A DNA stretch of 57,976 bases from Mesoplasma seiffertii ATCC 49495 (GTDB lineage Bacteria > Bacillota_I > Bacilli_A > Mycoplasmatales > Mycoplasmataceae). The notes under the pieces are model-generated. The model was not told the DNA's origin and searched no databases. It saw only the letters and a list, made by a program, of their open reading frames with translations. How positions within the stretch are numbered: position 1 is the stretch's first letter; each line of letters opens with the position of its first letter. The position numbers and the translations under genes were made by a program. Below are positions 2 through 57,976 of the stretch, piece after piece. The stretch covers positions 1 through 57,976 of the forward strand of contig NZ_JAED01000008.1 of NCBI RefSeq assembly GCF_000518725.1, in the 5' to 3' direction.

Positions 2-898
2 ATTAACGAAGAAACTCATATTTTAGAAGGTGATTCAACATTTGTGATTACTGGAGCAATTAAAGCACCAAAAACTAAAATTACTACTGAGGAAATTCAA
101 AATAACGCTAATGTTAAAGCAATTTCAAATTTAGATAATTTACAAGCTGTTAATGAAAAATTAGCATCAATTAAAATTACTGGAGTTGATAGTTTGGCTG
201 CAACTGCTATTGATGGGTCTGCAACTGATGTAACAGTTACAATAACAATTAACGAAGAAACTCATACCTTAGTTGGAGCAAACACTTTTAGAATTGAGCA
301 AGCTATCAAAGATGATTTTGTAGATCAGCGAACAATATACAAAAATTTTCAGTTAGAAGAACGAACTACTTTTGCGAAAAACTTAGCAGAAGTAGAAGAT
401 ATTTATCAGATTGTAAAAATTGGATTTTTTAAAAATGATAAAGGAGAAGTACAAGTTCCTAGAATGCCTCATAACATTGGAATTATGTCGGAAGAATTAA
501 AGTTGCCGTCAGAAGTTACAAGCTTAGAAAGCATGTTTGAGGGTTATACGGGTGATTTTAGTGGTCTCACAGCCATAATTGCAAACTGAGATGTATCAAA
601 TATAACTAATATGAGTCATATGTTTCATGGAGCTGAAGAGTTTAATGGAGATATTTCCATGTGAGATGTATCAAAGGTAACTAACATGAGTTATATGTTT
701 GCTGGAGCCAAATATTTTGATCGAGATATTTCCAAGTGAGATGTATCAAATGTAACTGACATAAGTTATATGTTTGCTGGAGCAACAATATTTAATCAAA
801 ATTTATCTAACTGAACTTTTTCAAATAATGTAAATCATGAAAATTTTGATCATTTAACTGAAGGTTGAAAAATAGAAAATAAACCAAAATTTATATAA
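2..898 (+). CDS. BspA-like surface protein, C-terminal part (partial)
   Basis: The gene is open at the left edge and ends with TAA at 896-898. It falls into two parts. The first ~100 residues carry a repeat of about 82 residues: the same 20-nt stretch occurs at 1-20 and again at 247-266, encoding INEETH followed by L.G..TF.I. From about 585 to 810 there are three or four 25-residue BspA/DUF285 leucine-rich-like repeats with the pattern WDVSxVTxMSYMFxGAxxFxxDIS, their Trp codons being TGA. Proteins of this kind in mollicutes are surface lipoproteins that bind host or neighbouring cell surfaces. The signal peptide lies outside the window, so the lipoprotein nature is inferred. The specific function is unknown. 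Confidence 0.85.
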
Positions 899-22985: not shown

Positions 22986-23459
22986 ATGGGTCTATTTAGT
23001 AAAAAGAAAAAACAAATCGAAGTTTTCGCTCCAGTTGATGGAGAAATCATTAGTTTAGATTTAGTAGAAGATGAAGTATTTCAAGAAAGAATGATGGGTG
23101 ACGGGTTTGCTGTTATTCCTGCAAATGGTGTTTTCGTAGCACCAATTGATGGGCAATTAGTAACTGTTTTCCCAACAAAACATGCTTATGGTATTAAAAA
23201 CGATTCAGGAATTGAATTATTAATTCACATCGGATTAGATACTGTTACTTTAGAAGGAAAAGGATTTAGTTCAAAAGTTGAACAAGGTCAAAAAGTAAAA
23301 GTTGGAGATGAACTTGTTAAAGTTAACTTAAAAGAAGTTACTGCTGCAGTTCCATCAATTAAAACACCTGTTGTCTTTACAAATACAAATGGAAAAACTA
23401 TTGAAGTAGTTAAATTTGGAAAAGTAAAAAAAGGTGACTTAGTAGCTGTTTTAAAATAA
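22986..23459 (+). CDS. crr: PTS EIIA, glucose type
   Basis: The 157-residue free-standing EIIA-Glc carries phosphate from HPr to EIIBC permeases that lack their own EIIA. Both active-site histidines are present: His66 in PTKHAYG and the phosphorylated His81 in LLIHIGLDT. The N-terminal motif is VFAPVDGEIISL. GGGAG precedes the ATG. Its likely clients here are treB, the glucose-type EIICB at 23930 and the sucrose EIIBC at 39195. A paralogue without either histidine is at 47153. Confidence 0.96.
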   Translation: MGLFSKKKKQIEVFAPVDGEIISLDLVEDEVFQERMMGDGFAVIPANGVFVAPIDGQLVTVFPTKHAYGIKNDSGIELLIHIGLDTVTLEGKGFSSKVEQGQKVKVGDELVKVNLKEVTAAVPSIKTPVVFTNTNGKTIEVVKFGKVKKGDLVAVLK

Positions 23460-40908: not shown

Positions 40909-41601
40909 ATGGAAAAGAAATGAAAAATTGTTTTTGACTACTTACTTAATCTTATTAAAAGTAATGAGATTGAGGATGGAGGATTACTGCCAAGTCAAAA
41001 TCGATTAAAAACCCGCTTTAAATACAGCGAGCAGCCAATCAGAATTGCCTTTAATAAACTAATTGAATTGAAACTTGTTGAATCAGTTCCGGGAAAAGGG
41101 TTTGTAGTTACTAAGAAAAGTAAAACCAATCAGCTATTTAGTTTTCGCGAATTGTTTCCAAATAGCGTAAGCGAGTTTTATGATTTAGAAGAAGTTTATG
41201 TTGATAAAACTTTATCAAAGCAATCAGGATTTTATCCCGGTTCAACAGTTTACAAATTTAAATCAAAACGTTATGTTGATAATAAAATTATGATTTATCA
41301 AGAAAGCTGATTGAATAAGGAAATCTTTAAAAACATTAGTTTGGACTATTTAAAAGAATTCGGATTAATGAAATATGTTGATGAGAAATCGGCAGTAAAA
41401 GTTAGTCACTGTTTAAAAAATATTTATGGCCAACAATCAACATCAGAACTAAATTTATCTGTAATATTTGAAGATTCTGATTGTAATCAAGCAATCGTTG
41501 ATCGTGGAATGTTATTTGATATATATAATGAACTTATTGAATTTCGCTTAAGTTACTACAAACTTAGTGATTTTAATTGAGAATTTATTGAATGAAGATA
41601 A
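40909..41601 (+). CDS. GntR-family regulator of the sucrose operon
   Basis: The 230-residue protein has a GntR winged helix (LLPSQNRLKTRFKYSEQPIRIAFNKLIELKLVESVPGKGFVVT, read in two parts at about residues 26-68) and a C-terminal UTRA-like effector domain. It lies inside the operon between permease and hydrolase, so it may control its own synthesis. The ATG is 15-20 nt from GGGAG, a weak initiation context that may keep levels low. The effector is presumably sucrose-6-phosphate or fructose. Confidence 0.88.
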
Positions 41602-41617
41602 TAGAAAAGAGAAAGAA

Positions 41618-43081
41618 ATGAACGATAAGTACCGTTTAATTGATAATCAAAACTTAAATGAGTTTGCTAGAAATCATGTTTCTAAAGAACAAGACTGATA
41701 TAACAATCAGTATCATTTAAGTGCATTTTCAGGATTAGTAAATGATCCCAATGGTTTAGTATTTTATAAGGGTAAGTACTATATCTTTATGCAAAACTGC
41801 CCATTTAGCCCTGAACATAAAAACAAGTCATGATTGTTATATACAACAGTTGACTTTGTTAATTATATTTATGAAGGAATTACAATTACTCCATCATTTT
41901 GAGGAGATAGCCATGGTGCATTTTCAGGAAGTGCCTATGTTCATAATGATGAACTATATTTCTACTATACGGGAAATATCAAAATTGGAACTGATGGAGA
42001 TCGCACAAGTTATACAATAAAAGCTAAGGTTGATATTGAAAATAAACGTGTTGATAAAAAAGTACTTTTTGAAACTGACAAGCAAGTTTATACAGGGCAT
42101 TTTAGAGACCCAATTGTTTTTGAAAAAAATAAGCAATTTTATATGTTAAACGGAGCACAAAGTTTAGATTTAAAAGGAACAATTAACTTTGCAACTACAC
42201 CAGATCTTGAAAGTGATAAATGAGTTTCATTAAAAGATGATGATTTTAATATTGGAACTCGTTTGGAAAACTATATGCTGGAGTGTCCTAATTATTTAAG
42301 TATTCAAAATCGTGATGTTATTTTCTTAAGTGTTGAACAAAAAGTCTCATTCGCGGAAGGCGGTCATCATGTTTGATACTTAACAGGAAACTTTGATAAT
42401 CAAATGAATTTTAAAGAAGTTGCTCCAATACGTAAGTTAGATCAAGGATTGGATTATTATGCACCACAAGTATTTAATAATACTGGTGATCGCAAAATCA
42501 CAATGGCATGATTGGGAAATTCTCAATCAGAACCAAAAGCTACATTTGAACATCATTGATCAAATCAATTAACTGTACCACGTGATGTAAGTTTAAAAAA
42601 TGATCATTTGTATCAAAAACCAGTTGTTGAACTAGAAAAGTTGCGAGTTAAAAACATTACTCAACAAGATAAACTTAACTACGAAAATGGATTGCTGGAA
42701 ATTGATTTATTAAATGAACAAAGTCAAAGTGAGTTTATAATTGAATTTGCTAACGAAAAAAATGAAAATATTAAAATAGTTTATAAAGATAAAAAGTTTG
42801 GTTTTGACCGTAGTCAATGTAGTTATGTAGAACCAATAAGTTTACCAAACCTTTATAGTTTTGAAATTGAAAAAATTACGGATTTAAAAATTTTGGTAGA
42901 CCGTAGTTCAATGGAAATTTTTGTTAATGAGGGTCAAGAAACGATGGCTGTTAAATTCTTTGTAAAAGAACATAAGCAAATTAAAACTAATTTAAAAATT
43001 ACTAATGCATATCAATTGCAACCGCATAAAATTATTTACAATAATATTTTATTTAGTAATCATCATGAAAGTGGAGAATAA
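41618..43081 (+). CDS. scrB: Sucrose-6-phosphate hydrolase, GH32
   Basis: The 487-residue cytoplasmic enzyme splits sucrose-6-phosphate into glucose-6-phosphate and fructose. The three GH32 acids are present: nucleophile Asp43 in LVNDPNG, transition-state Asp164 in FRDP and acid/base Glu222 in LECPN. The C-terminal beta-sandwich (about from residue 340, with VDRSSMEIFVNEG) is complete. AAAGAAAATG-like spacing gives a modest ribosome-binding site. The fructokinase gene follows after 2 bp. Confidence 0.95.
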
Positions 43082-43083
43082 AT

Positions 43084-43998
43084 ATGAAACATAAAATTGT
43101 GTGTTTGGGAGAAGCACTAGTTGATGTTTATAACAACAACGGAGTCATAACTGAACAAATTGGGGGAGCTTCATTTAATGTGGCTGCTAGCTTAGGAAAA
43201 TTACAAAATGAATTATTGTTTTTAGGAGCAGTTGGAAATGATCAACAAGGTCAAGCAATTATTCAAAAAATGAATGACTACAATATTCAAACAAAATTTT
43301 TGCAAGTTAATAATCAACCAACGACTAAAGCTTTAGTAACTTTAGATAAGTTTAATGATCGTAACTTTGAATTCATTCGTGGGGCCGACCAAAATTATCA
43401 TTTAAATATGGCAGAACTTAAAAAGGAATCAATAGCTGCAATCCATTTTGGAAGTGCAACTGCTTTTTTAGGAGGATCACTACAAGATGCCTATAATCAA
43501 CTAACTGACTATGCAATTCAAGAAAAAATATATTTTTCATTTGACCCTAATTTTAGAGACAAATTGTGAAATAGTGAAAGTAAGGTAGCAGAATTTATTC
43601 AATATTGTCAACCATTATTAAAAAATGCAACTTTAATTAAGCTAAGTGAAGAAGAATTGGAATTATTAAGTAATGGACAAAATAATGAGGATCGTTTACA
43701 TAATTTAATGAAAATTAATAGTCAAGCGCTAATTTGTATTACTCAAGGGTCAAAAAGTACTTTATTTGCTTGAAACAATGAAATTGATGAGGTTCCAGTT
43801 GTTAAAAGCGAACATGTCGTAGACACAACTGGAGCAGGTGATTCATTTATTGCAGGATTAATTAATGAGATTTTAGATCGCAAGATTAATTGTGACTCAG
43901 ACAAAGATGAAGTTTATGCAGCTATTTATGCAGCAAATAATTTTGCAAAAGCTTCAGTCGAACATGTTGGGGCGTTGACATTTCTAAACTTTATTTAG
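43084..43998 (+). CDS. scrK: Fructokinase, PfkB family
   Basis: The 304-residue ribokinase-family enzyme phosphorylates the fructose released from sucrose-6-phosphate. PfkB motif 1 is GGASFNVAASLGKL, and motif 2 is DTTGAGDSF with catalytic base Asp253. GGAG precedes the ATG, which is 2 bp after scrB. It completes the sucrose operon. Confidence 0.94.
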
Positions 43999-44001
43999 TA
44001 T

Positions 44002-44027
44002 GGCACCATTTTTAATGGTGCTTTTTA
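44002..44027 (+). terminator. Intrinsic terminator of the sucrose operon
   Basis: GCACCATT and AATGGTGC flank a 3-nt loop, followed by TTTTT. Confidence 0.9.
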
Positions 44028-44074
44028 TTTGATATATACTTTTAATAGAACAAGCTACAACAAGGAGAACATAT

Positions 44075-44803
44075 ATGAAACCAACGAAACCTCTAATTGC
44101 AATCACGGGAGCATCTTCAGGAATTGGTAAAGCAACTGCAGAGTTGTTTGCATCAAAAGGATATCCAGTATTATTAATGGCTCGTCGTATTGAAATTTTA
44201 GAAGCAATGAATATTGAAAATAAGGTTACAGCTCAAGTAGATGTAACAAAAATTGATGAGATTCGTCAAGCAATTGCTAAGGCTGAATCAATTTATGGGC
44301 CAGTAGATTTATTAATTAACAATGCTGGAATCATGCCAATGGATAAATACGTTGATCAATCACTTCAAGATAAGTACGCCACTTTAGACGTTAATATTAA
44401 AGGTGTTATTAATGGAATGGATTGTGTTTTAAAAGCAATGAATGCTCGTAAACATGGAACTATTATCAACATATCTTCAACTGCTTCACGTTGAACTTCA
44501 GTTGATCATGCACTATACAATGGTTCAAAATTCGCTGTAAATGCGATTACTGAACAAGCTCGTCGGGAAAATGCCGAAAACAATATTCGTTTTATTTTAA
44601 TTGAGCCAGGAATTGTTGATACTAATTTGTTAGATACAACAACCAACCAAGAAGTTTTAGAAGCATACTTAATTAATAAGAATAAGCTTAATGGAGGATT
44701 ATCTTCTGAAGCGATTGCTGAGGTTATCTTATATAGTTATGAACTACCGCAGCATATTAATATCAAAGAACTATTAATCACTCATACCAATCAAAAAATT
44801 TAA
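44075..44803 (+). CDS. Short-chain dehydrogenase/reductase
   Basis: The 242-residue classical SDR has the cofactor motif TGASSGIGKA, NNAG, a Ser in INISSTASRW and catalytic Tyr148-X3-Lys152 (YNGSK). ARR after the second strand favours NADP(H). It stands alone after the sucrose terminator, with AAGGAG upstream. The substrate cannot be inferred; many relatives reduce small carbonyls or are annotated oxidoreductases of the YdfG type. Confidence 0.92.
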
Positions 44804-44953: not shown

Positions 44954-46732
44954 ATGGCGAATATTCGATTTATGCCAATTGGTGGTCAAGATGAACGAGG
45001 AAAGAACATTTTTGCTTTAGAAGTTGATCAAGATTTGTTTATTTTTGATGCTGGAATTAAGTTTCCTGACAAAGGAATTTTAGGAGTTGACGTTGTCATT
45101 CCTAAATTGGACTTTTTAAAAAACAATGTCAAAAGAATTAAAGGGATTTTTATAACAAATCCAGCGTCTTACAATTCAGGGGCTATTAGTTATATTTTAA
45201 AAGAAATTGATGTGCCAGTTTATTGTAATGAAATAACAACAGTTGTATTAAAAATTAAGGCGCAAAGATTACGCGTTAAAAACAAAGAGCAAAATTTCCA
45301 TATCATTAAAGAACATGATATTTTAGAATTTGGAAAAGTTAAGGTGGAAGTTTTCCGCACAACTTCTAGTTCACCTCAATCATGTGGATTTGCAGTGCAT
45401 ACTGAAAATGGGGTTATTGTTTATGCTGGAGATTATATTATTGACGGAAAAGAACAATCATACTTTTCAACTGATTTTACTCACTTAAATGAGATAAGCA
45501 ACAAGGGTGTTTTAGCATTAATCGCTGACACTGAATTTGCTTCAAGAATGGACTTTACAGTTCCAAACCATAAAATTGAAAATTATATTGCATCACCGTT
45601 TAAAGAAAAGAAAACAAAAATTGCTATTGGAATTTTTGAAGAAGATATCTTTAAATTAGGAGAAATTTGCATGGCCGCTAAAGAAAACGGCAGAAAAATA
45701 GCTGTTTATGGTCGTACAATGTCAGCAATTATTGAGTCAAACATGATTAATGAAAATTTAGTTTTAACCAAAGATGATTTATTTTCTGTTGAAGAATATA
45801 TGAACTCAGAAAATGGAATTTTAATTATTTCAGGAACTGGTGATGTTTTATATTCTAAGTTGGCAAAAATTGCTAATGGGAATGATGAAGTTGTTGAGTT
45901 TAAGGAAAAAGATTTAATTATTTTAGCAACTCCCCCAGCAGCAGGAGTTGAGAAACGCCATGCACAAATTCTCGATGAGTTAGCAAGAACTGATGCGCGT
46001 TTAATTGCTTTAAGTGATAAAAACATTTGATCAATGCATGCTTCTTATGAAGACGTTAAAATGCTTGTTTCAATTATGAAACCAAAGTACTTTGTTCCGG
46101 TAAAAGCATTGTATAAAGATTTTTTAAAAGCAGAAAAAGCAGCCATCGAGGGTGGAGTTCATCCAGAAAATGTCGGAATTATTGATAATGGAGAGATTTT
46201 AGTATTATCAAAAAATCACTTAGCAATTAGCCAAGAGCGCGTTGAGACCGGTGATGTCTATGTTGATGGTGTTGGAATAGGTGATGTTGGAAGTGTTGTG
46301 TTAAATGAACGAAAACAATTGGCAACTGATGGTGTTATTATTGTTGGAGCTACAATTGATACAAGAAATAAAGAACTAGTTTCTTTAATCGATACTCAAA
46401 TGCGTGGAGTTTTATATATTAATGAAGATAATCCAATTTTTAAGATTTTACAAAAGCAAATTGCTGAAATTATTAAAAAAGGTGAGTCATTGTTTAGAGA
46501 AGCACCAGAACAATATGATTTAAATAACATTAAGCGTGAAATTATTTCGAAAGTTCGTTCATCAATCAAGCAAGAGTCAGGTAAACAACCAATTGTTTTG
46601 GCAATCATAAATGAAATTGATGGCAAAGAATATGTTCCGTATATTCGTAATACTCGAAACGTTACAAACTATCAAAATAAGAAAACAAATTATCAAAAAA
46701 AATCGTCATTTAAAAAGCCTAAACAAAACTAA
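44954..46732 (+). CDS. RNase J-family protein lacking the metal-binding motif
   Basis: The 592-residue protein follows the RNase J layout: metallo-beta-lactamase core, beta-CASP domain, C-terminal domain and a Lys/Asn-rich tail. It starts with MPIGGQDERGKNIFALEV. The HxHxDH metal site that should follow IFIT is replaced by NPASYN (residues 69-74). IYAGDY (VYAGDYIID) and SMHAS remain. It is therefore probably not a nuclease on its own but a partner of an active RNase J, as J2 subunits are in Firmicutes. A hairpin (44864-44887) lies in the leader. Confidence 0.88.
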
Positions 46733-46795
46733 TAATTTTTTTAAGATATTAAAAAATTATTTTAAAAACTTAAAAAACAAAGAATAAGCTTTAAA

Positions 46796-46846
46796 AACAG
46801 GAGATTTTGTCCCAATTTTGGACAAACTCTTGTTTTTTTTTTTTTT
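46796..46846 (+). terminator. Terminator with T14 tract after the RNase J homologue
   Basis: ACAGGAG and CTCTTGT, then TTTGTCC and GGACAAA, pair with a small bulge around CAATTTT, followed by T14 (46833-46846). Confidence 0.88.
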
Positions 46847-47152
46847 TGTTAAGTTATATAAAGATAGAAAACAATTAGGAAATAGCGTTGCTAATTAAAA
46901 TAACTATCAAATTGAAAAATTAAATTCTGAAAAGCAAAGAATTTAATTAGAAGGGCATACATACAAAATAAGAATATTTATTAAGTAAAACTTATTGCAT
47001 GTAAGAAAACATTTGAGTTATGTTAAGCAGATAACTTAAATCTATAGGTATATATTAAAAGTTTTAAGTAAAACTAGTAATGGTTTTTTAAAGTACATTA
47101 ATTGAAACTTATATATTAAATAACAAAAACAAAAAGAATGAGGTAAAAGAAT
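46847..47152 (+). ncRNA. Gene-free 306 bp with three tandem hairpins; structured RNA or leader candidate
   Basis: No gene is open on either strand. A two-tier stem (GATAG 46863/CTATC 46904 outside, AATTAG 46873/CTAATT 46891 inside) is followed by TTAAATTCT/AGAATTTAA (46920-46928 with 46938-46946) and AGTTAT/ATAACT (47016-47021 with 47031-47036). It lies between a terminator and the pseudo-EIIA gene, so it may be a long 5' leader or a small RNA. No known family is recognised. Confidence 0.3.
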
Positions 47153-47644
47153 ATGTTTGCTAGAAAAAAAATAACTAAAATTTTCGCCCCAGCTGATGGC
47201 GATATTGTTGAATTGAAAAATAGTACTAATCCGTTGATTAAAGAGCTTATTGCTAAAGAGGGATTTATTTTAAAAACCCATAAGCAATCATTTTTATCCC
47301 CAATTTCGGGAAAAGTGGTAATGTCTTTGAAAACCAAGAAGGCTTATAAAATCAAAAATAAAGCCGGAGTCCAAGTTCTATTATTTTTAGCGTTGGAAGG
47401 AAACTATTGAGTTTTTGATAAATTCTTTTCAAAAGTTGACAATAATCAAAAAATTAAAGCTGGTCGTCCTCTTTGTGATGTTAGTTTAAAAAGACCTAAA
47501 AGTAATTCAGAAAATACTTCAAAAACAGAAGTTAACCAAATTATTGAGATTCCTATTTTAACAACAAGTAATAATGAAAAAACCTTAAAAGTTTTAAAGT
47601 TTGGAACTGTTAAAAAAGGTGATCTAATTGCAATTTTGAAATAA
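47153..47644 (+). CDS. EIIA-Glc-like protein without active-site histidines
   Basis: The 163-residue protein is a clear homologue of crr at 22986: IFAPADGDIVEL, FLSPISGKVVMSLKTKKAYKIKNKAGVQVLLFLAL and the end LKFGTVKKGDLIAILK all align. The first histidine is Lys63 (TKKAYK for TKHAYG) and the phosphorylated one is Leu79 (LLFLAL for LLIHIG). It cannot carry phosphate. It heads a cassette with a membrane protein, an ABC ATPase and a coiled-coil protein (42 bp to the next gene). A sensor or binding role is inferred; loss of function by decay is less likely, as the frame is intact. Confidence 0.88.
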
Positions 47645-47685
47645 ATAGTCTTTAACAATTAGCAATAAAGTATGCAGGAGGAAAA

Positions 47686-49575
47686 ATGGCATCAAATCTT
47701 AAAACAGAAAATAAAGCAGTCTTATCTGAAACAAAAAAAATCCAAACAGCAACAAACATGAAAAAAGGAAGCACAGTAAGTTTTTATAGACTGCTAAGTT
47801 ATTTCATTAAACTTATTTTTATTGATAAAGCCTTTTTAATCATCTTTGGTATTGGAATTGCGTTTGGTATTGGATTTGGTATTTTAGCAAGTGTCCAAAA
47901 ATCACCGATTACAATTTTTAACTGATACTACTTAATTAATACAGTTTTGCTATTGCTATTAATTGCTAGGCTAGTGACTTACTTTTTACATAACAAATTT
48001 GAAGATCAAACGATGACAATTATTATTCAACAGAAAACAAAAAGAATTTATATTTTGTTAAGTATTTGGTTAGCAATTTTTTTAAGTGTTTTAGTTTTAA
48101 ACCTAATTGCGACAATGGCCATGGTTTTACTAAATGTAAGTAACCTTTACTCAATTCACTACTTAATGGTGAATATAATTTATCAAACTGCTTGTTCAGT
48201 GTTTTTAATAAGTTTCATGTTTTTCTTAACATTAACTTGCAAGCAACAAATCGTTTCGATAATTTTGTCATTTGTACTATTATCACTATTCATATCTAGT
48301 TTACCGCAACAATTTTATGATACAAAAATGAACAATACTCAAATAACTTTTGTAGATAAAAATGGAGGTCAAATCATTTATAAAGCTTCTGAAATTAATG
48401 AAGCAATTGCATTTAATGAAAACGTAAGCAAGGGACAAATTAGATTTCCTCACTTAAGCAAGTATATTAATGATTACTATATTAAAAATCATTATACAAT
48501 TGCAAACTTTGAAAATAAATCTGAAATTCAATCACGATTAAAAATGTGAAGTGACCTAAATCTTATAAATACTAGAGAAGAGACAATCATAATTGGTGGT
48601 CAAGATAGCACTCAACTTAAAATTGAAAGCATCAATGCTCGAAGTGGATTAGAAGGTTTTGAAAAAGATGATATTGTAGAAATCAATTTGGTTTTTAAAA
48701 ACAAATTTAAAAGCATTAATGAAATTAAACAATTGGAAAAAAATGAAAAAAACAGTGCCAAAAAATCAATTTTAAAAGACTTAGTTAGTTTTTATGATTA
48801 TTACGATGCGACATTTAAAGCTGCCTATCAAAATCTAAATACTTCAAATAAAGTTTTAGAAAAAATGTGAAGTATTAATTATTCTAACTTCGGAAAATAC
48901 TTATCATTGCAATTAGTCAGTGATGAATCAGTAATCACTGTAGTTGATAATGTTGGAGGAGTACAAACTAAAAAAGGCGCAAGTGCAAACATTTCAAATG
49001 GATTGTTCCAAACTTACTTATTTAATAACTATTTTGCTTCATCAAGTTCAAAAAATTATGATTTGCTTTTTGCAACTGAAAGAAGTAGTGGCGAATATGC
49101 TGATAACTATAAAATGCTAATTGATAGCATTTCAAGAGAAATGTATTTTGAGTTATTCATTAGAGTTTTAGAAGATAACTTTATTAATCAAACTTCAAAT
49201 TACGTAATTATTACTGAATCTCAAGTCATTAATAACGATCAGTATAAAGCTTACGAAAGCTATGCTAATAACTTTAACTTACTAAGTTTAGGATTATTTC
49301 CCGCTAATATGAACAGTTATTTTGAAACTTTCGCTGGTAAAGCATGAGATCAATATTGATTCAATTTTAACAGTAAATCATTTATTGATTTTAAAACTCA
49401 AGACAACATCTTTTTCACAAAAGTGAAGTTTAAATTTGCTGTAAATGATCAAACTCGCCAAATTACTGGTGTTGATAGACCAAATATTCATTTTTATGTT
49501 GGAACACAAGTTATTTTCCTAATAATTACTGCAACTTCATCAATCATTATGTTCATCAGAAAGGACTTAAAATAG
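47686..49575 (+). CDS. Large membrane protein, ABC permease-like, with ectodomain
   Basis: The 629-residue protein has five hydrophobic helices in the first 215 residues (for example FLIIFGIGIAFGIGFGILA, YLINTVLLLLLIARLVTYF, LLSIWLAIFLSVLVLNLIATM), a roughly 380-residue hydrophilic region rich in Asn, Ser and Lys, and a last helix at the C terminus (VIFLIITATSSIIMFI). This five-plus-one layout fits an ABC-2-type permease with a large external domain between helices 5 and 6. GGAGG lies upstream of the ATG. The ATPase gene begins 2 bp after its stop. No family is recognised. Confidence 0.8.
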
Positions 49576-49576
49576 T

Positions 49577-51094
49577 ATGGCAAAAAAACAAATACTTAGT
49601 TCACAACAAAGTGAATCAATGACTACCGATATTGTTAAGTTTGACAATTATTTAAAAAGGTTCACATACAAGGAACAAATTGGTCCTTTAAATTTCACAA
49701 TTAGAAAAAACAAAGTGACGATTATTATTGGACGAAGTGGTTCAGGAAAATCTGTAATTTTAAATTCAATTATGGGTTCATATGCGCGGTATAAGGGAAC
49801 TATTGATATTGCTGGTTACCGAAGAAAGTCAAGAAATGGTTATAAAGTTAATAACGAAATTGGATTTTATACCCAAATGGATTTTATAAATTATGATATC
49901 ACTTTAAGAACTTATTTAAATCAAATTGCAAAAGTAATGGGATTAACTAAAGAGTTTTCTGAATTTCAAATTCAGCAGTTACTAGATTTATTTCAGCTAA
50001 ATGAGCACAGTGAAAAAAAACTAAAGGACTTTTCATGAGGAATGAAAAATAGGTTAAATTTAATTATTAGTTTATTAAAAGATCCAAATCTGATCATTTT
50101 AGATGAACCTGGTGCAAACTTAGACTCATTATGAAGAAAAAAGATTAAGGAAATTTTATTGGAGTATAAAAACAATGATAAGACAGTGATTATAGTTGTC
50201 CATAATATTGATGAAGTCTTTGATATTGTTGATGACATTATCTTAATTGAACAAGGACAGATTATCTATAAATCAGAGTTAAAGGATTTAAAACTTTATT
50301 TGCGAAGCAGACTTTTTTTCAAAACAGATATCGCAAAACATCCATCATATAACGAATTTAAAAAGCAACTTTTAGAATCTGGTTTTGAAATTTTTGAAGA
50401 GGATTTAGAGAGTAAAACTTTAGAAATTGGAGTTTTAAAAGAAGAAGCTCATAAAATTAACTTTTTAGTAGCAATGATCATTAAGTTCAATATGTTTTTA
50501 GAAGAAATAATTAATGTACCAATGAATTTTGAATCAATTTATAACTCATTAGTTTTCTCTGAGAATCTTAAGGAGCTAGAGTTTTATGTTAAAAGAATTA
50601 GTCCTATAAGTAGAGTAAGATTACGCTCATTATTGAGAACATCAAAACATAAAATAAAAAATCAAATTAAAAATTCATCAAGTGCAGAATTTGTTGAAGA
50701 AAAACGTCGATTACTTTTAGAAAATAAAATGCTAATAAAAAATTTAATGCGAAAAAAATATGATTCCAAAAATGTGAATATTCTTAATAACATTTTAGAA
50801 AAACATTTTCATAACAGTAAACCTTTAAATACGACAGAAATGGATCTATTAAAAAATACTTTGAAAGAAATGTTATCCCAAAATCTTTTATGCAAATATG
50901 AAGCAAAAATTATTAAATTGGGACTTGAAGTTGCTTTACGCCAAACTAAAAATGAAAAAGCATTTTCTGCATTTGAAAGTCTACTAAAAATGAATTCTGG
51001 AAATCCAAAAAACTTAAAAGTTACTCATGTAAGCAAAAACTTGATTAAAAATAACCCAATCATACAAGATCATAAAAATCAATTATTTTGATAG
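49577..51094 (+). CDS. ABC ATPase with long C-terminal extension
   Basis: The 505-residue protein has an intact nucleotide-binding domain: Walker A GRSGSGKS, signature FSWGMKNRL, Walker B LIILDEP and H-loop VVHN. After about residue 245 it carries a 260-residue, mainly helical charged extension without a family match (KRRLLLENKMLIKNL, ALRQTKNEKAFSAFESLL). The true stop is TAG at 51092, one codon after a TGA Trp. It should drive the membrane protein encoded just upstream. Its length parallels the extended but degenerate ATPase at 31232. Confidence 0.88.
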
Positions 51095-51111
51095 ATCAGA
51101 AAAGAGGCTAT

Positions 51112-52209
51112 ATGAATAAAAATTTACGAACAAAATACTTTTCGATTGAAGAAAGTGGAAACACCTTTAATATCAAGGACTACAATAATAATTTAGTTCA
51201 AAACTATGAAAACTATTTAGATGCAGTTGTTGATATTCAACTGCTTAATGAAAAAATGAGTCAAACTCAAAAATTGGAAAATGAAGTAAATTTGAAACTT
51301 AAGAGTGTTAAGGTTCAAGCAAATGTGCATCATGAAAATAATGTTCTTGATATTGACGAAGAAAAATATTTAGATATTTTAGAAAAAACAGAAATTTTAA
51401 AACAAAATCTTGAAAAATTGGGAGCAGAAGCTGAAGCATTAAATCAAAAAAAACTTGTCAAGCAACAAGCCGCAGCTAATCAAAAAGTTGAAAAACAAAC
51501 GTCAGTAAGAGTTTTAAAAGATTTTTTAGAATATGAAAATAATGTCTCTCAGCAAGATCTAGAAACTTTAAAATCAGAAATTTTGAGTAAGGTTAAAGAG
51601 ACTCTTAACAGTATTAATCTTGCCCAACTTAATGAAATAGTTGTTAAAAATAAAAGTTTAGAAAAAGCATTTTTAGTTATTCAAGAGCAAGTAACTAAAA
51701 ACTACGCCGAAATGATAACTTTCCAAAATGAAATTCGCAGCGCGTTACAAGAGCTAACAAGTGACCAAAAAGCTTTTTTATCAAAAGATGAGTTTGATAA
51801 AAGTCAACTTCTGCTAAACGAATTCAATACTGCTCAAAATGATCAACGGTATATCAAAATTGACCAGATTGAGTTGTTATTTGAAAAATATTTGAACTTA
51901 AGCAAACCTAAGGCAGCTAGTAAAAACCCAAAAAAAGCAACGTCAACTAAATCAACTTCTAAAAAAGTTGGGGTGAAAAAACCAACAACTAAAAAAGTAG
52001 TTGAAAAGAAGACATTATCTAAACCTCCGACTAAAAAAATAGCTGTTCCTAGTCAACCATTAGCTGACGAATTTGATGTCGAACCTATTATGAATTCAGA
52101 TTCTAAAGCAACTGAATCAAAGGACTTACTCGACTATGAAAAAGCTTTTTTGGAATTACAAAAAAATGGTTCACTTAAAAGCTATATAAAAAATCTGATT
52201 AAAAAATAA
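51112..52209 (+). CDS. Coiled-coil protein with Lys/Pro/Thr-rich segment
   Basis: The 365-residue soluble protein consists of helical, heptad-like segments (residues about 30-240; ILEKTEILKQNLEKLGAEAE) and then a histone-H1-like basic segment (about 260-315: KKATSTKSTSKK, KKPTTKKVVEKK, KPPTKK), ending in an acidic short tail. ATG 51112 is chosen because AAAGAGG lies just upstream. It follows the ATPase by 17 bp. It could be a scaffold linking the ATPase extension to nucleic acid or cytoskeleton. Function is unknown. Confidence 0.78.
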   Translation: MNKNLRTKYFSIEESGNTFNIKDYNNNLVQNYENYLDAVVDIQLLNEKMSQTQKLENEVNLKLKSVKVQANVHHENNVLDIDEEKYLDILEKTEILKQNLEKLGAEAEALNQKKLVKQQAAANQKVEKQTSVRVLKDFLEYENNVSQQDLETLKSEILSKVKETLNSINLAQLNEIVVKNKSLEKAFLVIQEQVTKNYAEMITFQNEIRSALQELTSDQKAFLSKDEFDKSQLLLNEFNTAQNDQRYIKIDQIELLFEKYLNLSKPKAASKNPKKATSTKSTSKKVGVKKPTTKKVVEKKTLSKPPTKKIAVPSQPLADEFDVEPIMNSDSKATESKDLLDYEKAFLELQKNGSLKSYIKNLIKK

Positions 52210-52232
52210 AGAATGAGTTAAAGGAAAAAAAT

Positions 52233-55190
52233 ATGAAAAAATTATTAATGACTTTAGGAGCAGTAAGTTTATCTGTTCCCCTTGTAGCATCTACAGTATC
52301 TTGTTTTACTAATACATCAGTTATTAACCCTGAAAAAGAAGACAATGGGTTTGAAACTGGAAAAGAATGAATGGGTAAAGGAAGTTTAGAAGAGCTTTAT
52401 GCAACAAAAGAACTTTCTGTTAAAAATCAAAAATGACAAGATGTTTTAAAAACAGATTATTCTCAAAAATCAGTTAATTCTTATAAATTAGCTAATCCAA
52501 AAGTAATAAACGACAAATCGACACTTGCTAATAAAAGTATTTTACAAGTAAATGATCGTTTAGAATTTACGCCATATGCAGACATGGGAATTGTTGAGGA
52601 TACAGCTGAATATCTTATGAAAGAAAAAGGGAAAAGCTCAGGTACTCGTACTGAAGCAATGGAATCATTAGAAAATCATCAAACAAACAACATTGTTTAT
52701 AATGACTTAGGAGAAATTTCTGCTAATAAAGAGGTTATTACTGATGCTAGCGAAATTACTTTAGGATTTATGCAAAATGCATCAGATACTGGAGAGCTAG
52801 TACCAATGTGAAATGCTGCTCCTGCTAAAGATAAGTTAGGAATCCTGGCTGATCAAAAAGATGAAACTGAATATGCAAAATGATTTAATGATCGCTACCG
52901 TAACTGAACTGGGGCAAGTGAGCAAAATACTCGCTGAGAAGCAAACGAAAAGACAGGACATTTAGATTCTCAAAAACTGCGAATTTCTTTTGGTCCATTT
53001 GCGAATTCATTGTGACATACAGCTTGACAAAATAACAAGACTCCAGAGCAATTGGCTACAGTTTTAGAAAAAATTGCTGCAAAATATGATACTAAAAAGT
53101 TTGACTTTTACTTTGCTGCTCCATATTTATCAGCTAGTGGTAACTACGCTGATTCTCAAAGATTATTAGCCAGTGCGTTGAAAATTTTAATTGAGAAAGA
53201 TAGTGAATATGATATTCAATTGTCACTAGTTATGTCTACAAAAGATGGTGTTGCAATTCATCCAGGATTCTTAGAAGGCAGCAGTGCTGGAAATCTAAAA
53301 TTATTAGGAGATGAAGCATTCCCATTATATAACTTTACTAAATACTTAGGAATGAACTTTAGATTAAACTTAGTTTCAGGTTACTTAACTCTTCCAAATG
53401 ATCCAGCAAATAATCCCGATTGAGAAATTGAAGCAATGAAATCAGGAGTTTTACAAACTCACGAAAACTGAAGAAAAATGCATGAAGTAATTAATGAGGG
53501 AACAGAAGCAACATTAGAAAAATCTTCACGAAAAATCAAAGTGACCCCATGAATTGGTCGTAGAGCAGAAGCTGCTGCATATAACTTTACTCCAAAAAAT
53601 GCTGTTGAGTTACGTTCATGAGCTGAAGAACAAAAACTAGGTGGAGTAGGGATGTTTTATATCTCTCGTGATACACCAAGTTTGTTTGAAGACAATGGTC
53701 AAGAAGGACCAGCTCAAGCTGATAAAAATGCTTTAAACGAGAACATTCGTTCAGGGTCAGGATTTGAACAGTTTACTTATGCAAAGGCTTTAAATGGTAC
53801 TTTTGAAACTAAAGATTTAAAACCTGAAGAAGTTGTAGATATTAAAAATGTTGGTGGAATTGATTATAAAGAAGATATTCAAAATAATACTGACTTAGAT
53901 AATCTAGAAAATCCTGGTTCTTGAGAAGGTCCCAATGTTGGTGGGCCTGGAGAAGGAGCAGGAGGTGCTGGGGAAAGTGAAGGAACTAATCCTCCTCCAC
54001 CAACTGGCCCAGGAAAAAGTATGTATAGTTCATGAGAAGAAGCTAACCCAAATAGAACTGACAAGATTACTAAAAAAGAGCAAGCAAACAATCAAACTTA
54101 TTTCTCGCCATATTTAGATGCTGGTTTATACCAAGGAAATGATATGCAGGAAATTTTAACATCAGTTGAAAGCATGGATCATTTGACATTAGCCTTTGTT
54201 CAACAAGTAAATGAACACAATGACAAAATTGAAATGTCAATTGCTGGTCAAGCTAAAAATAACGAAGGTTATACTTGATGAGAAGAAACACAGTTCTGAG
54301 GAAAAATGTTGAAACCGTTAGCAGAGCAAAATAACTTTGAAAATATCAAAGTTGCTTATGGTGGAGCAACAACTGGTGGATTTACAGAAAAAAATCCATG
54401 AACATTAGCTAATAAGCTTAATCCAAATGATCCTATCAAGGCTCAACAAGATTTAAAAGAGGCCTTAATTGGTTACCAACAAGAACTAGTTGACGTTGTC
54501 CAAAAATACGGACAACAAACAGTTGGAATGCCAAAGGCAATTGACTTTGATATTGAAGGGCATGCTCAAGAATTAGATGCAGATAATCATTTATTGGCAA
54601 AAACATTAGCTGAAATGAAAAAAGCTGATTCAAGTTGAGATTTCTCAGTTACTTTACCGGTTCTTCCAAGTGGTTTAACAAGTGTTGGATATAACGTTAT
54701 GAATATTTTTGTTGAAGAGTATCAAAAAGCGGGACTTTCACAAAGCGACTTACCAGTAATTAACTTAATGCTAATGGATTATGGTGATCCGATTTATGTT
54801 AAAGCTCGTGATGTTGATAAAGTAACCAACTTTGATTTAGCTCGTGATGCAATCAACGCTACTAAAAATAATTTAGCAACTTCAATTGAAAATAATTATG
54901 GAAGTGTGGAAATTGGCAATCAAGGTTTATACAAACTAATTGGAGCAACACCAATGATTGGAGTCAATGATACAGTTCATGGGGTCTTTACTTTAGAAGA
55001 TGCTAAAGAATTATACAATTGAAGTCATAAAAATGGTTTAGCTTATATTGGAATATGATCAATGAACGATGATCGTGGCTTCAATATAGATACTCAAAAG
55101 CCGGGTAATAAATCATTAACATCCCATGGTCTAGCATATCTTAATGAATACGATTTTGCTAAAGCCTTTAGTGGAAACTGAAAGTTCTAA
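52233..55190 (+). CDS. Two-domain GH18 chitinase-like lipoprotein
   Basis: The 985-residue lipoprotein has a signal peptide with lipobox Cys24 (STVSC). The C-terminal half, from about residue 610, is GH18-like: AIDFDIEG supplies Asp771, Asp773 and catalytic Glu775 of the DxDxE motif, and LMLMDYGDP fits the substrate-binding strand. The N-terminal half (about 90-540) has a similar barrel-like pattern (RISFGPFAN, FDFYFAAPYL, VGMFYISRD) but no catalytic motif. A Gly/Pro-rich linker (about 570-600, GGPGEGAGGAGESEG) separates the halves. It would act on chitin or glycans outside the cell, fitting an arthropod host. It is the first gene after the cassette at 47153. Confidence 0.85.
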
Positions 55191-55225
55191 AAATAAAGAC
55201 ACAAAAAGAAAAGGACAATTTTAAT

Positions 55226-55254
55226 CAAAAGGCGCCCTAAACGGGCGCCTTTTG
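55226..55254 (+). terminator. Very GC-rich intrinsic terminator
   Basis: CAAAAGGCGCCC and GGGCGCCTTTTG form a perfect 12-bp stem around TAAAC. The GC content is unlike the surroundings. Confidence 0.88.
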
Positions 55255-55387
55255 TGATTAACCTAAATCAATAAGTTTGTAAGTATACAAAAAAATAAAA
55301 AAACTAAAAATTTAATTCCTTAAGAAATTTAGAGTATTAAAAAATAAAGTCGTAAAACAATGAAAGCAAATAATTAAGGAGTAAGAT

Positions 55388-57478
55388 ATGAAAAATTTTT
55401 TATCTGTCTTGGGAGCTGTTATGTTAACAACTTCTACAGGTTTAACAGTTATTGCATGCAGTAATAGTGAAACCATTTCAATTCCTACATCTGAAGAAAC
55501 AATCAGTGAGTATAAAACGGAATTAAATAACATTTGAAATACAGTTTATAATCAAAATACTAGTAAATTTGTAAGAAAAATTTATAACGAAGAAGATACA
55601 GAAAATTATAACCTGTTTAATTTTAATTATTTAAAAACACATTTTAGTGGTTCAGAAAATGCATCTTTTAATTTATCAAATGATCTTATAAGTCAAACTT
55701 TGTTTTTAAGAGATTTAGCGATTTTATTTCCTGAAGACCAGTTTGCCAAAGAAATTCAAAGTAATTTGGCTACAGGAAAAAATTCAGTCAAATATCGTAA
55801 TACCTACATGGGTAGTACAAAAGCGACCTTAGGAGATTTTAAAATTTTAGAAAACAGTGACTTTTCATTAACAAGAACAAATTATAAAAACTTGGAAACT
55901 GGAGCAACTGAACTAATTTTTACGATTAATGTAACAATAAGCCGACAAATGCACTATAAAAATCCTCAAGGTTTAGTTGAAATGCATAATGTTAATCAAA
56001 TCCCATTAAGTATTTTAATAGGAAAAGATGGAAAAGCTCTATCAATTATTCAAAAAGTTATTACCGAACTCCCAAAGCAAATATTTGCAAATGGGGAATC
56101 CCAATTTAAAGCTTCAACATTTAAAAATCTGTATAGTGATTTTAAAGCATATACCAAAGCTTTTGATTTAAGTCTTTATGACTATCTTAATAGTCCAACA
56201 TACAAAAAACTTATAACAAAGAATATAGAAATTCTTAACAATCAAGAAAATCAGTACAAATTAGTATTGGGAGACATAGTCGCAAGTGCTGCAGAAATCA
56301 AAGTACTTTCTGAAATGATACAAAACAATACTAAAGAAAATCAGGCAAATCTTGAAACAAAAATTCTTTATGATCTGCAACGAAACCCATTAGCTAATAG
56401 TTTAATTTTAAAGAAGACAGAAACTGAAGTTTTGAAAAAAGACTATGCCTTGGAGATGCTGCAAGAAATTGTACCAGAATTAGACTTCAAGATTGATGAA
56501 TATGAAGAAAACCTAAGTGAGTTTTTAAGGGCAAATATTCCACAAGAAAGTATAAATGATTTGATAGAAACAACGTATAGCTACGGATTTTTCAGGCTTC
56601 AAAATATTTATTTGGAGTTTGATGAACACTCAAAATTAGAGTTGCCAAGTCTGACAATTCCTTGAACATACGAAAATGATATTGTTGAAACTAATAAAAA
56701 AGAAGCTTGATTACTATCAATTTATGAAGCCTTGAAAATTGTCAATGAAAATGTTCTTAGAGCCAATTCAATTATTCCGACAAGTTCAGCGCCAAATATT
56801 TTTGCTGAATCAACTTTAATTAATGAAAACTTAAAAGCATCATTCAATAAACCATGATCTGAAATTGTTAATGATACAGGAGTTTCAAGCAAAAATTGAA
56901 ACATTGAAGATGATAACATTTTTGATTTTGATGAGGGGAAAAGCTTGATTACGTCTAAGCTAGTTTCTGAAAAAAGTAGACAAAAAATTGCTAATAATAT
57001 GCAATATGATTTTGACTCATTTTCAGCGGATATGTTGAATACTTACTCAGTTGATCAAGAGGTCAATAGGTTGGAATATCCATTAGATTATTTATCGCAT
57101 TTGCAGCTCAATGTTTTTGGTTCAAATTATCAATCAAATAATACTTTTGAATTACCAAACACTAGTAATTATTGAGTCAAAGCATCAGAGTATCCTACAA
57201 CATATTTAACGTACAAATTTAGCTTAAGTTGAATAAATTTTAGTATATCATTGCCGTTTGATGAAGGATATCGCTTCTATGATACTTACGAACCTGAAAA
57301 AGTTTGAAGCGGTGAAAAGTACTGAGAATTGAGTAATGACAGAAGTTTGTTTGCAGATTCAACAGATTCAGAAAAATTTGATTGAGAATATCCAAATCGG
57401 TATAAACTATCAAGTTATAACGAATCAGGAAGCATTTATGCAATACCAGCTTTTATTATGTTTACTATAAAAAATTAA
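55388..57478 (+). CDS. Lipoprotein of unknown function
   Basis: The 696-residue protein has a signal peptide with lipobox Cys24 (TVIAC). The mature part is hydrophilic, rich in Asn, Ser and Glu, with mixed helical and strand patterns and no membrane segment. It begins at ATG 55388 after AAGGAG, 198 bp after the GH18 gene and a strong terminator. Trp codons are TGA. I recognise no domain. It is presumably anchored outside the cell membrane. Confidence 0.8.
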
Positions 57479-57589
57479 TTTCTGCATAAATATCAGACAA
57501 AATTAAAAGTTTGTATAAAAGTTAATCATTATGAGAATTCAAAAAATGCTATTGACATCTTATAAATAATTAACATTCAAAGGAGAACT

Positions 57590-57976
57590 ATGAAAAAATT
57601 ATTAACCTTATTAGCAGCAATTGGACTAACAGCAACGACAACAACTTCAGTTGTTGCTTGTGGAAACTCTAAACAGTTACAACCAGTTGATACCACTGAA
57701 TTTGAAAAACTAGCCATCACTGAAGCCCAAGGAAAATACTTTACTATTGAACAAGCAGTTGAGGGAATTAATAAAATTAATAACCTTCCTGAAGGCATTG
57801 AATCAATTAATGTTTCAATTTTAGAATCACCAACCATTCAAGTTGAGTTTATTGCTCAAAAAGGCTATGAAACTCCGAAACCTTTTACCGTAAATTTTAA
57901 AGCAAAGCAACAAACAGGAAAATCTAAGATTAATCTTTATGAAATTGAGGAAGCTGTTAAGGTTAGAAACATTCAA
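57590..57976 (+). CDS. Lipoprotein, N-terminal part (runs off the window)
   Basis: The visible 129 residues start with a signal peptide and lipobox Cys24 (SVVAC) and continue with repeat-like segments (FTIEQAVEGINKINNLPEGIESINVSI, then KINLYEIEEAVKVRNIQ at the edge). AAAGGAG precedes the ATG. The pattern resembles the roughly 80-residue repeat of the surface protein at 2-898, so it may be another member of that lipoprotein family. The rest lies outside. Confidence 0.75.
   Translation, partial: MKKLLTLLAAIGLTATTTTSVVACGNSKQLQPVDTTEFEKLAITEAQGKYFTIEQAVEGINKINNLPEGIESINVSILESPTIQVEFIAQKGYETPKPFTVNFKAKQQTGKSKINLYEIEEAVKVRNIQ

Follow-up and report, generated by a model that had tools for sequence, protein, structure and literature searches.

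Spiroplasma-type wall-less bacteria widely share a membrane machine that has not been described, and the four codirectional genes at 47153-52209 of the window (i.e., the whole 57,976-nucleotide stretch of DNA that was analysed) encode its richest version. The conserved core of this machine is a permease and an ABC ATPase, often with a lipoprotein, and not the four-gene unit put forward in a first-pass annotation of the sequence. That annotation had also called the gene set undescribed, which is consistent with our finding no description of it in the open-access literature subset. The genomes of Spiroplasma, Mesoplasma, and their relatives are very small; still, most sampled species of the family retain the machine, some in at least a dozen copies, and it may be the means by which wall-less bacteria handle the surface lipoproteins that meet an insect or plant host.

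Organization of the cassette

The window was read with genetic code 4, under which the four ORFs are found in the positions and the common orientation originally noted. The features discussed below are as follows:

46806..46826, + strand: terminator-like hairpin with a T-rich tail, a consensus match only, at the 3' end of the transcript of the upstream RNase J-like gene
47153..47644, + strand: pseudo-EIIA (P0001, 163 aa), EIIA-Glc fold family, with K63 and F78 replacing the active-site histidines
47686..49575, + strand: permease (P0002, 629 aa), with a predicted ABC-2/NosY-type membrane domain and an ectodomain inserted ahead of the last TM helix
48301..49485, + strand: permease ectodomain, 395 residues; a solved structural relative was not found
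49577..51094, + strand: ABC ATPase (P0003, 505 aa), with a nucleotide-binding domain, a DrrA-type C-terminal domain, and a ~175-aa extension ending in LFW
51112..52209, + strand: fourth protein (P0004, 365 aa), helix-rich and cytoplasmic; its N-terminal domain (FxIExxxNxFxIKD) is specific to the clusters, and its tail is lysine-rich
52233..55190, + strand: GH18 lipoprotein (P0005, 985 aa), with a GH18 chitinase-like domain and its DFDIE motif making up the C-terminal half
55388..57478, + strand: lipoprotein (P0006, 696 aa), of a family recurrently adjoining the permease in relatives
~22987..23459, + strand: ordinary EIIA (crr-like) with both histidines intact, outside the cassette and used for comparison only

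The gaps between the four genes are 41 (initially given as 42), 1, and 17 bp, and that between P0004 and the GH18 lipoprotein gene is 23 bp. A consensus scan, which found 4 terminator-like sites against 3.1 expected in shuffles, placed none on the + strand between 46830 and 57976; the only + strand site in 46600-57976 is that at 46806-46826, 5' of the cassette, which makes a single transcript from the EIIA-like gene through at least the GH18 gene plausible. The GH18 lipoprotein, previously described as following the cassette, does lie immediately downstream, but the unit itself would extend into its gene, and the GH18 similarity is confined to the C-terminal half. Directly 5' of the RNase J-like gene and the cassette, positions 41567-44803 carry genes for a GH32-like sucrose/fructan hydrolase, a fructokinase-like protein, and a short-chain dehydrogenase.

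The permease and ATPase core

Searches of Pfam/NCBIfam models, including any named ABC-2 permease family, gave no credible match for P0002 or 20 of its relatives, and a profile of 21 permeases touched only one ABC permease in the PDB, PmtD, at E 1. The fold is clearer from structure prediction. The AlphaFold2 model of the permease had a mean pLDDT of 85.7 and a pTM of 0.80, and its top Foldseek rows were NosY, PmtD, and ABCG proteins, albeit with weak E-values. Alignment by VIA-align gave Z 21.1 for NosY (rmsd 3.3, 260 residues aligned), 18.1 for a mycobacterial efflux pump, 17.7 for ABCG2, and 15.2 for PmtD, all four matches spanning ~31..627 of the permease. Because of these matches, the membrane part of the model is an ABC-2/type V domain (i.e., a six-helix ABC-2 membrane domain plus an N-terminal connecting helix, both of which it has), with the ~395-residue ectodomain inserted between TM5 and TM6. 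An external domain of about 380 residues had been anticipated, close to the roughly 395 aa of the confident model. Each of the 44 permeases examined has such a domain, 336-416 residues long. Folded alone, that of P0002 gave a pLDDT of 89.5 and a pTM of 0.86, yet it had no Foldseek match in the PDB at E <= 0.001, and VIA-align against the Foldseek-ranked chains gave a best Z of 3.7, with none >= 5. The model thus suggests a new fold, absence of a match being of course no proof of one.

P0003 is a member of the ABC transporter ATPases (PF00005; 85.5 bits, cut-off 25), and its Walker A, LSGGQ-equivalent FSWGM (signature FSWGMKNR), Walker B Glu, and H-loop are essentially invariant among 21 relatives. 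The best named model was DrrA (TIGR01188; E 9e-39 over residues 33-311), but a score of 133.5 bits against a curated cut-off of 312 makes P0003 a relative and not a member; the best PDB sequence matches were ABCA ATPases. The description of P0003 as an extended ABC ATPase holds, as complete ABC motifs are joined by about 175 extra C-terminal residues that distinguish the present clade from relatives, whose ATPases are often no longer than about 300-320 residues. The extended ATPases of the clade end in [FV]W, with LFW in 4/5 proteins, and these shared residues are possibly a docking peptide. The individual C-termini (window 51080-51094 and loci L039, L040, L041, and L042) read KLFW, QLFW, or KLVW. 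ATPases of the Mesoplasma-type genomes carry ~600 extra C-terminal residues (L051:7173-10247, L053:9200-12088, and L057:9383-12253), with significant heptad periodicity in the one tested (L053); this extension may replace a separate P0004-like protein by fusion. A gliding role was also considered and rejected: the ATPase scored 109.5 bits with GldA (TIGR03522), far below the curated cut-off of 402.6, leaving the motility option raised at first without support. A gliding-family match in 1/23 lipoproteins (E 0.0037) was disregarded.

The permease family was found in 58/248 genomes of the order and 45/60 of the family; of the four species sampled in the genus, two lack it. An ectodomain search over a sample of the phylum had matches only in this order, and no plasmid-borne homologues were found. 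Of 43 clusters, 38 have an ATPase no more than two genes from the permease, and permease and ATPase distances are correlated with r 0.927 (shuffle maximum 0.16), part of which is shared species history. Together with the restriction of the P0004 N-terminal domain to such clusters, this pairing bears out the original proposal that the genes belong together. The ATPase signature motif occurs in 14 copies in genome G013 and 12 in G030, with 0 in the reversed control. On synteny, which had been suggested as a check, the cassette gene order is conserved in the sister species, which speaks for the same proposal, and the EIIA-like gene is present in only two genomes; adjacency that is conserved counts for little, as the synteny extends to the flanking genes.

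Decayed permease and ATPase copies with in-frame stops were seen beside intact ones in the same genome (L046:3085-5246 and G036:C2:512107-513810). An apparent replacement of the permease by a giant M. florum-type lipoprotein proved to be an artefact of masked N in the record: L127:1-15000, from a 793,224-base genome, is N-masked exactly at the expected permease site, and absence of a permease there is not evidence.

Lipoproteins adjoining the permease

P0005 matched the exochitinase 9buf with E 3.7e-16 over residues 769-948, and both the homology and the DxDxE motif (as DFDIE) assign that region to GH18. The whole protein had no Pfam match at E up to 1, and comparison of its two halves gave no significant similarity indicative of a tandem duplication. 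An exclusive tie between the chitinase and the cassette was rejected, as three more copies occur elsewhere in the genome. These other GH18-type lipoproteins are at G000:C9:6030-8861 and G000:C1:213220-216939; one is 66% identical to P0005 near full length, and two shorter ones are in tandem.

P0006 matched only lipoprotein signal models (LP_plasma above its cut-off, spiralin far below); it had no match to MOLPALP lipoproteins (TIGR04547), and its family has no Pfam entry and no solved relative by profile. Members of this family recur beside permeases, with matches reaching well past the signal peptide, and three more long members lie away from permease genes in the same genome. More generally, lipoproteins made up 44/112 of the genes within two of a permease but only 9/135 of those further away (OR 9.1, p 3e-10), and a regex search saw none within two genes in 14/43 clusters. 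In G013, lipoprotein-permease-ATPase units of ~6 kb and ~93% identity form a tandem array, a pattern suggestive of a surface system undergoing gene amplification or variation. The array (L129:204-19901; G013:C1:225000-244900) encodes a lipoprotein of ~616 aa, a permease of 585 aa, and an ATPase of 305 aa per unit, and one of the lipoproteins is broken.

Lineage-specific and probably dedicated components

P0001 is a member of the EIIA_1 fold family (PF00358; 61.1 bits, cut-off 27.2). Its closest solved relative is the Mycoplasma EIIA 2gpr (E 1e-22), and the EIIA chain of entry 4jbw, a complex of EIIA-Glc with MalK, was also matched. A functional EIIA-Glc has two active-site histidines, H75 and H90 in E. 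coli numbering. The corresponding residues of P0001 are K63 and F78, and the sister species (G003) has R and F there, whereas 10/10 crr homologues aligned, including the ordinary crr of the same window, have H at both. P0001 is therefore phosphorylation-dead, as first described, and the loss of both phosphoryl-acceptor histidines contradicts the simple form of control by sugar status, in which this protein would be phosphorylated. The two pseudo-EIIAs group on a single long branch apart from the crr proteins (support 100/100) and are 63% identical to each other. Between the two species pN/pS is 0.36 for the pseudo-EIIA, 0.36 for the permease, and 0.34 for the ATPase; because its value equals those of its neighbours, the pseudo-EIIA is judged from these sequences to be constrained and not decaying. 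The part that holds the dead active site, residues 31-82, is 73-77% identical, the C-terminus 79%, and the rest 44-50%. Only these two sister species among 60 family genomes have the gene, which is a lineage-specific addition to the conserved permease and ATPase core. A conserved dead EIIA beside an ABC ATPase also offers a case in nature for asking if an EIIA fold can act within an ABC machine as a fixed subunit that carries no signal.

P0004 had been called histone-H1-like, a label that does not stand: its score with the histone H1-like HC2 family (PF07382) was 14.7 bits against a cut-off of 40, and the lysine-rich basic tail is absent from its relatives. Residues 55-262 contain 0.5% Pro+Gly and are rich in likely helix formers; hydrophobic heptad periodicity was not above that of shuffles. 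The clearest feature is the N-terminal 60 residues (FxIExxxNxFxIKD). Five strong copies of this domain were found in 60 genomes, all within permease/ATPase clusters (the present species and its sister have two each, and Williamsoniiplasma lucivorax, of another genus, has one), and none outside the clusters at E < 1e-20; a scan of the named genomes with a single pattern recovered three loci. Of the neighbouring genomes, W. lucivorax and M. grammopterae are the ones whose names enter the evidence. With the paralogous clusters L048 and L049 counted in, there is good evidence from the sequences that P0004 is a dedicated cluster component. The second cluster of the same genome (L048:1392-9838; G000:C1:361900-370340) is without the EIIA-like gene and encodes an ATPase (430 aa), a lipoprotein (539 aa), a permease (599 aa), a P0004-like protein (465 aa), and a further lipoprotein (677 aa).

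How the machine may work

The evidence for the anatomy of the machine is strong; how it works, and on what, we infer. The NosFY part of the NosDFY complex has the ABC-2/type V fold and acts by mechanotransmission to the periplasm, and MacB is an analogous mechanotransmission machine. Our working proposal, which we rate at somewhat less than an even chance, is an ATP-driven surface machine that acts on lipoproteins by NosFY/MacB-like mechanotransmission, with the pseudo-EIIA as a fixed modulator and P0004 as a tether. Two ATPase chains would power two permease chains in a NosY/DrrB/ABCG architecture, the 2+2 stoichiometry being that of the known architecture, and a pair of ~395-residue ectodomains would face the exterior. 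As ATP drives the membrane helices to move, the motion would be passed to the ectodomains, which would then act on the co-encoded surface lipoproteins in their release, folding, assembly, or remodelling. The lipoproteins, having signal peptides of their own, should reach the outer face unaided by Sec and Lsp; as the machine is then not needed for their membrane crossing, these signals favour mechanotransmission over export. By analogy with EIIA-Glc and MalK, where unphosphorylated EIIA-Glc docks on MalK, the pseudo-EIIA of the present and one sister species is probably a fixed modulator that binds the ATPase and is deaf to PTS signals, and P0004 probably tethers the ATPase on the cytoplasmic side. 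The proposed link between the pseudo-EIIA and the ATPase draws on only two genomes, in which the wider region is also syntenic. Also counting against the proposal are the 14/43 clusters with no lipoprotein seen within two genes and the full-length P0006 relatives located away from permease genes. It is rather doubtful that the whole makes up a class of its own among ABC mechanotransmission machines of wall-less bacteria, with a novel fold outside the cell, dedicated lipoproteins, amplified cassettes, and a captured dead EIIA as a permanent regulatory subunit.

A secretion or adhesion role is possible, and the machine might simply export a peptide, lipid, or glycan as ordinary ABC-2 exporters do, with an ectodomain that merely gates or shields the exit and lipoproteins that adjoin only because surface genes cluster. 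The permease fold and the ATPase are indeed nearest to exporters such as PmtCD, DrrA, and ABCG, and several clusters have no nearby lipoprotein. However, no biosynthetic or precursor gene recurs in the clusters, the lipoproteins are 9-fold enriched and part of a tandem-amplified unit, and none of the 44 permeases has lost the large ectodomain; we regard export as a serious contender, but one more likely wrong than right. The earlier idea, in which the EIIA domain lets sugar status switch a complex for secretion, adhesion, or motility, appears very improbable. EIIA-fold homology, the sucrose-use genes upstream, and the GH18 lipoprotein downstream speak for it, but K/R and F occupy the phosphoryl-acceptor positions in the two species against H and H in ten crr homologues, the genome retains a normal crr, and the GldA match is far below its cut-off.

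A narrower question is whether the pseudo-EIIA and P0004 are subunits at all, or operon passengers beside a cooperating permease and ATPase. Both genes are missing from most clusters, the permease family itself is absent from two sister species in the genus, and, with the flanking genes syntenic too, conserved adjacency says little for either protein. Passenger status nevertheless seems rather doubtful to us: outside the pair of paralogous clusters that each of the two species carries and the one in W. lucivorax, the P0004 domain was not found at E < 1e-20 among 60 genomes, and the pseudo-EIIA is as constrained as the permease and ATPase, with its dead active-site region kept.

Comparison with known systems

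P0001 is a divergent homologue of EIIA-Glc (crr), which acts with MalK, but it has lost both histidines and is encoded with an ABC-2 machine instead of a sugar importer, and the cassette ATPase is without a recognised MalK-type regulatory domain. The DrrAB and PmtCD exporters resemble the cassette in that its ATPase is closest to the DrrA model over residues 33-311 and PmtD shares the permease fold (Z 15.2); they differ in that scores are under the curated cut-offs and the cassette has a large ectodomain, a C-terminal extension of the ATPase, and accessory proteins. With ABCG and ABCA proteins the machine shares the ABC-2 fold and, as a general design, large extracellular insertions (ABCA), but its permease and ATPase are separate polypeptides, and its ectodomain has Z < 5 with every Foldseek-ranked chain. 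No Pfam match to a NosD-type beta-helix protein, which serves in Nos copper-site maturation, was found among the cassette or following proteins, and, unlike NosY, the permease has a ~395-residue ectodomain ahead of the last TM helix and its partners are lipoproteins. NosFY is nonetheless alike in the membrane-domain fold of the model (Z 21.1), in its paired ATPase, and in having extracytoplasmic partners that are co-encoded.
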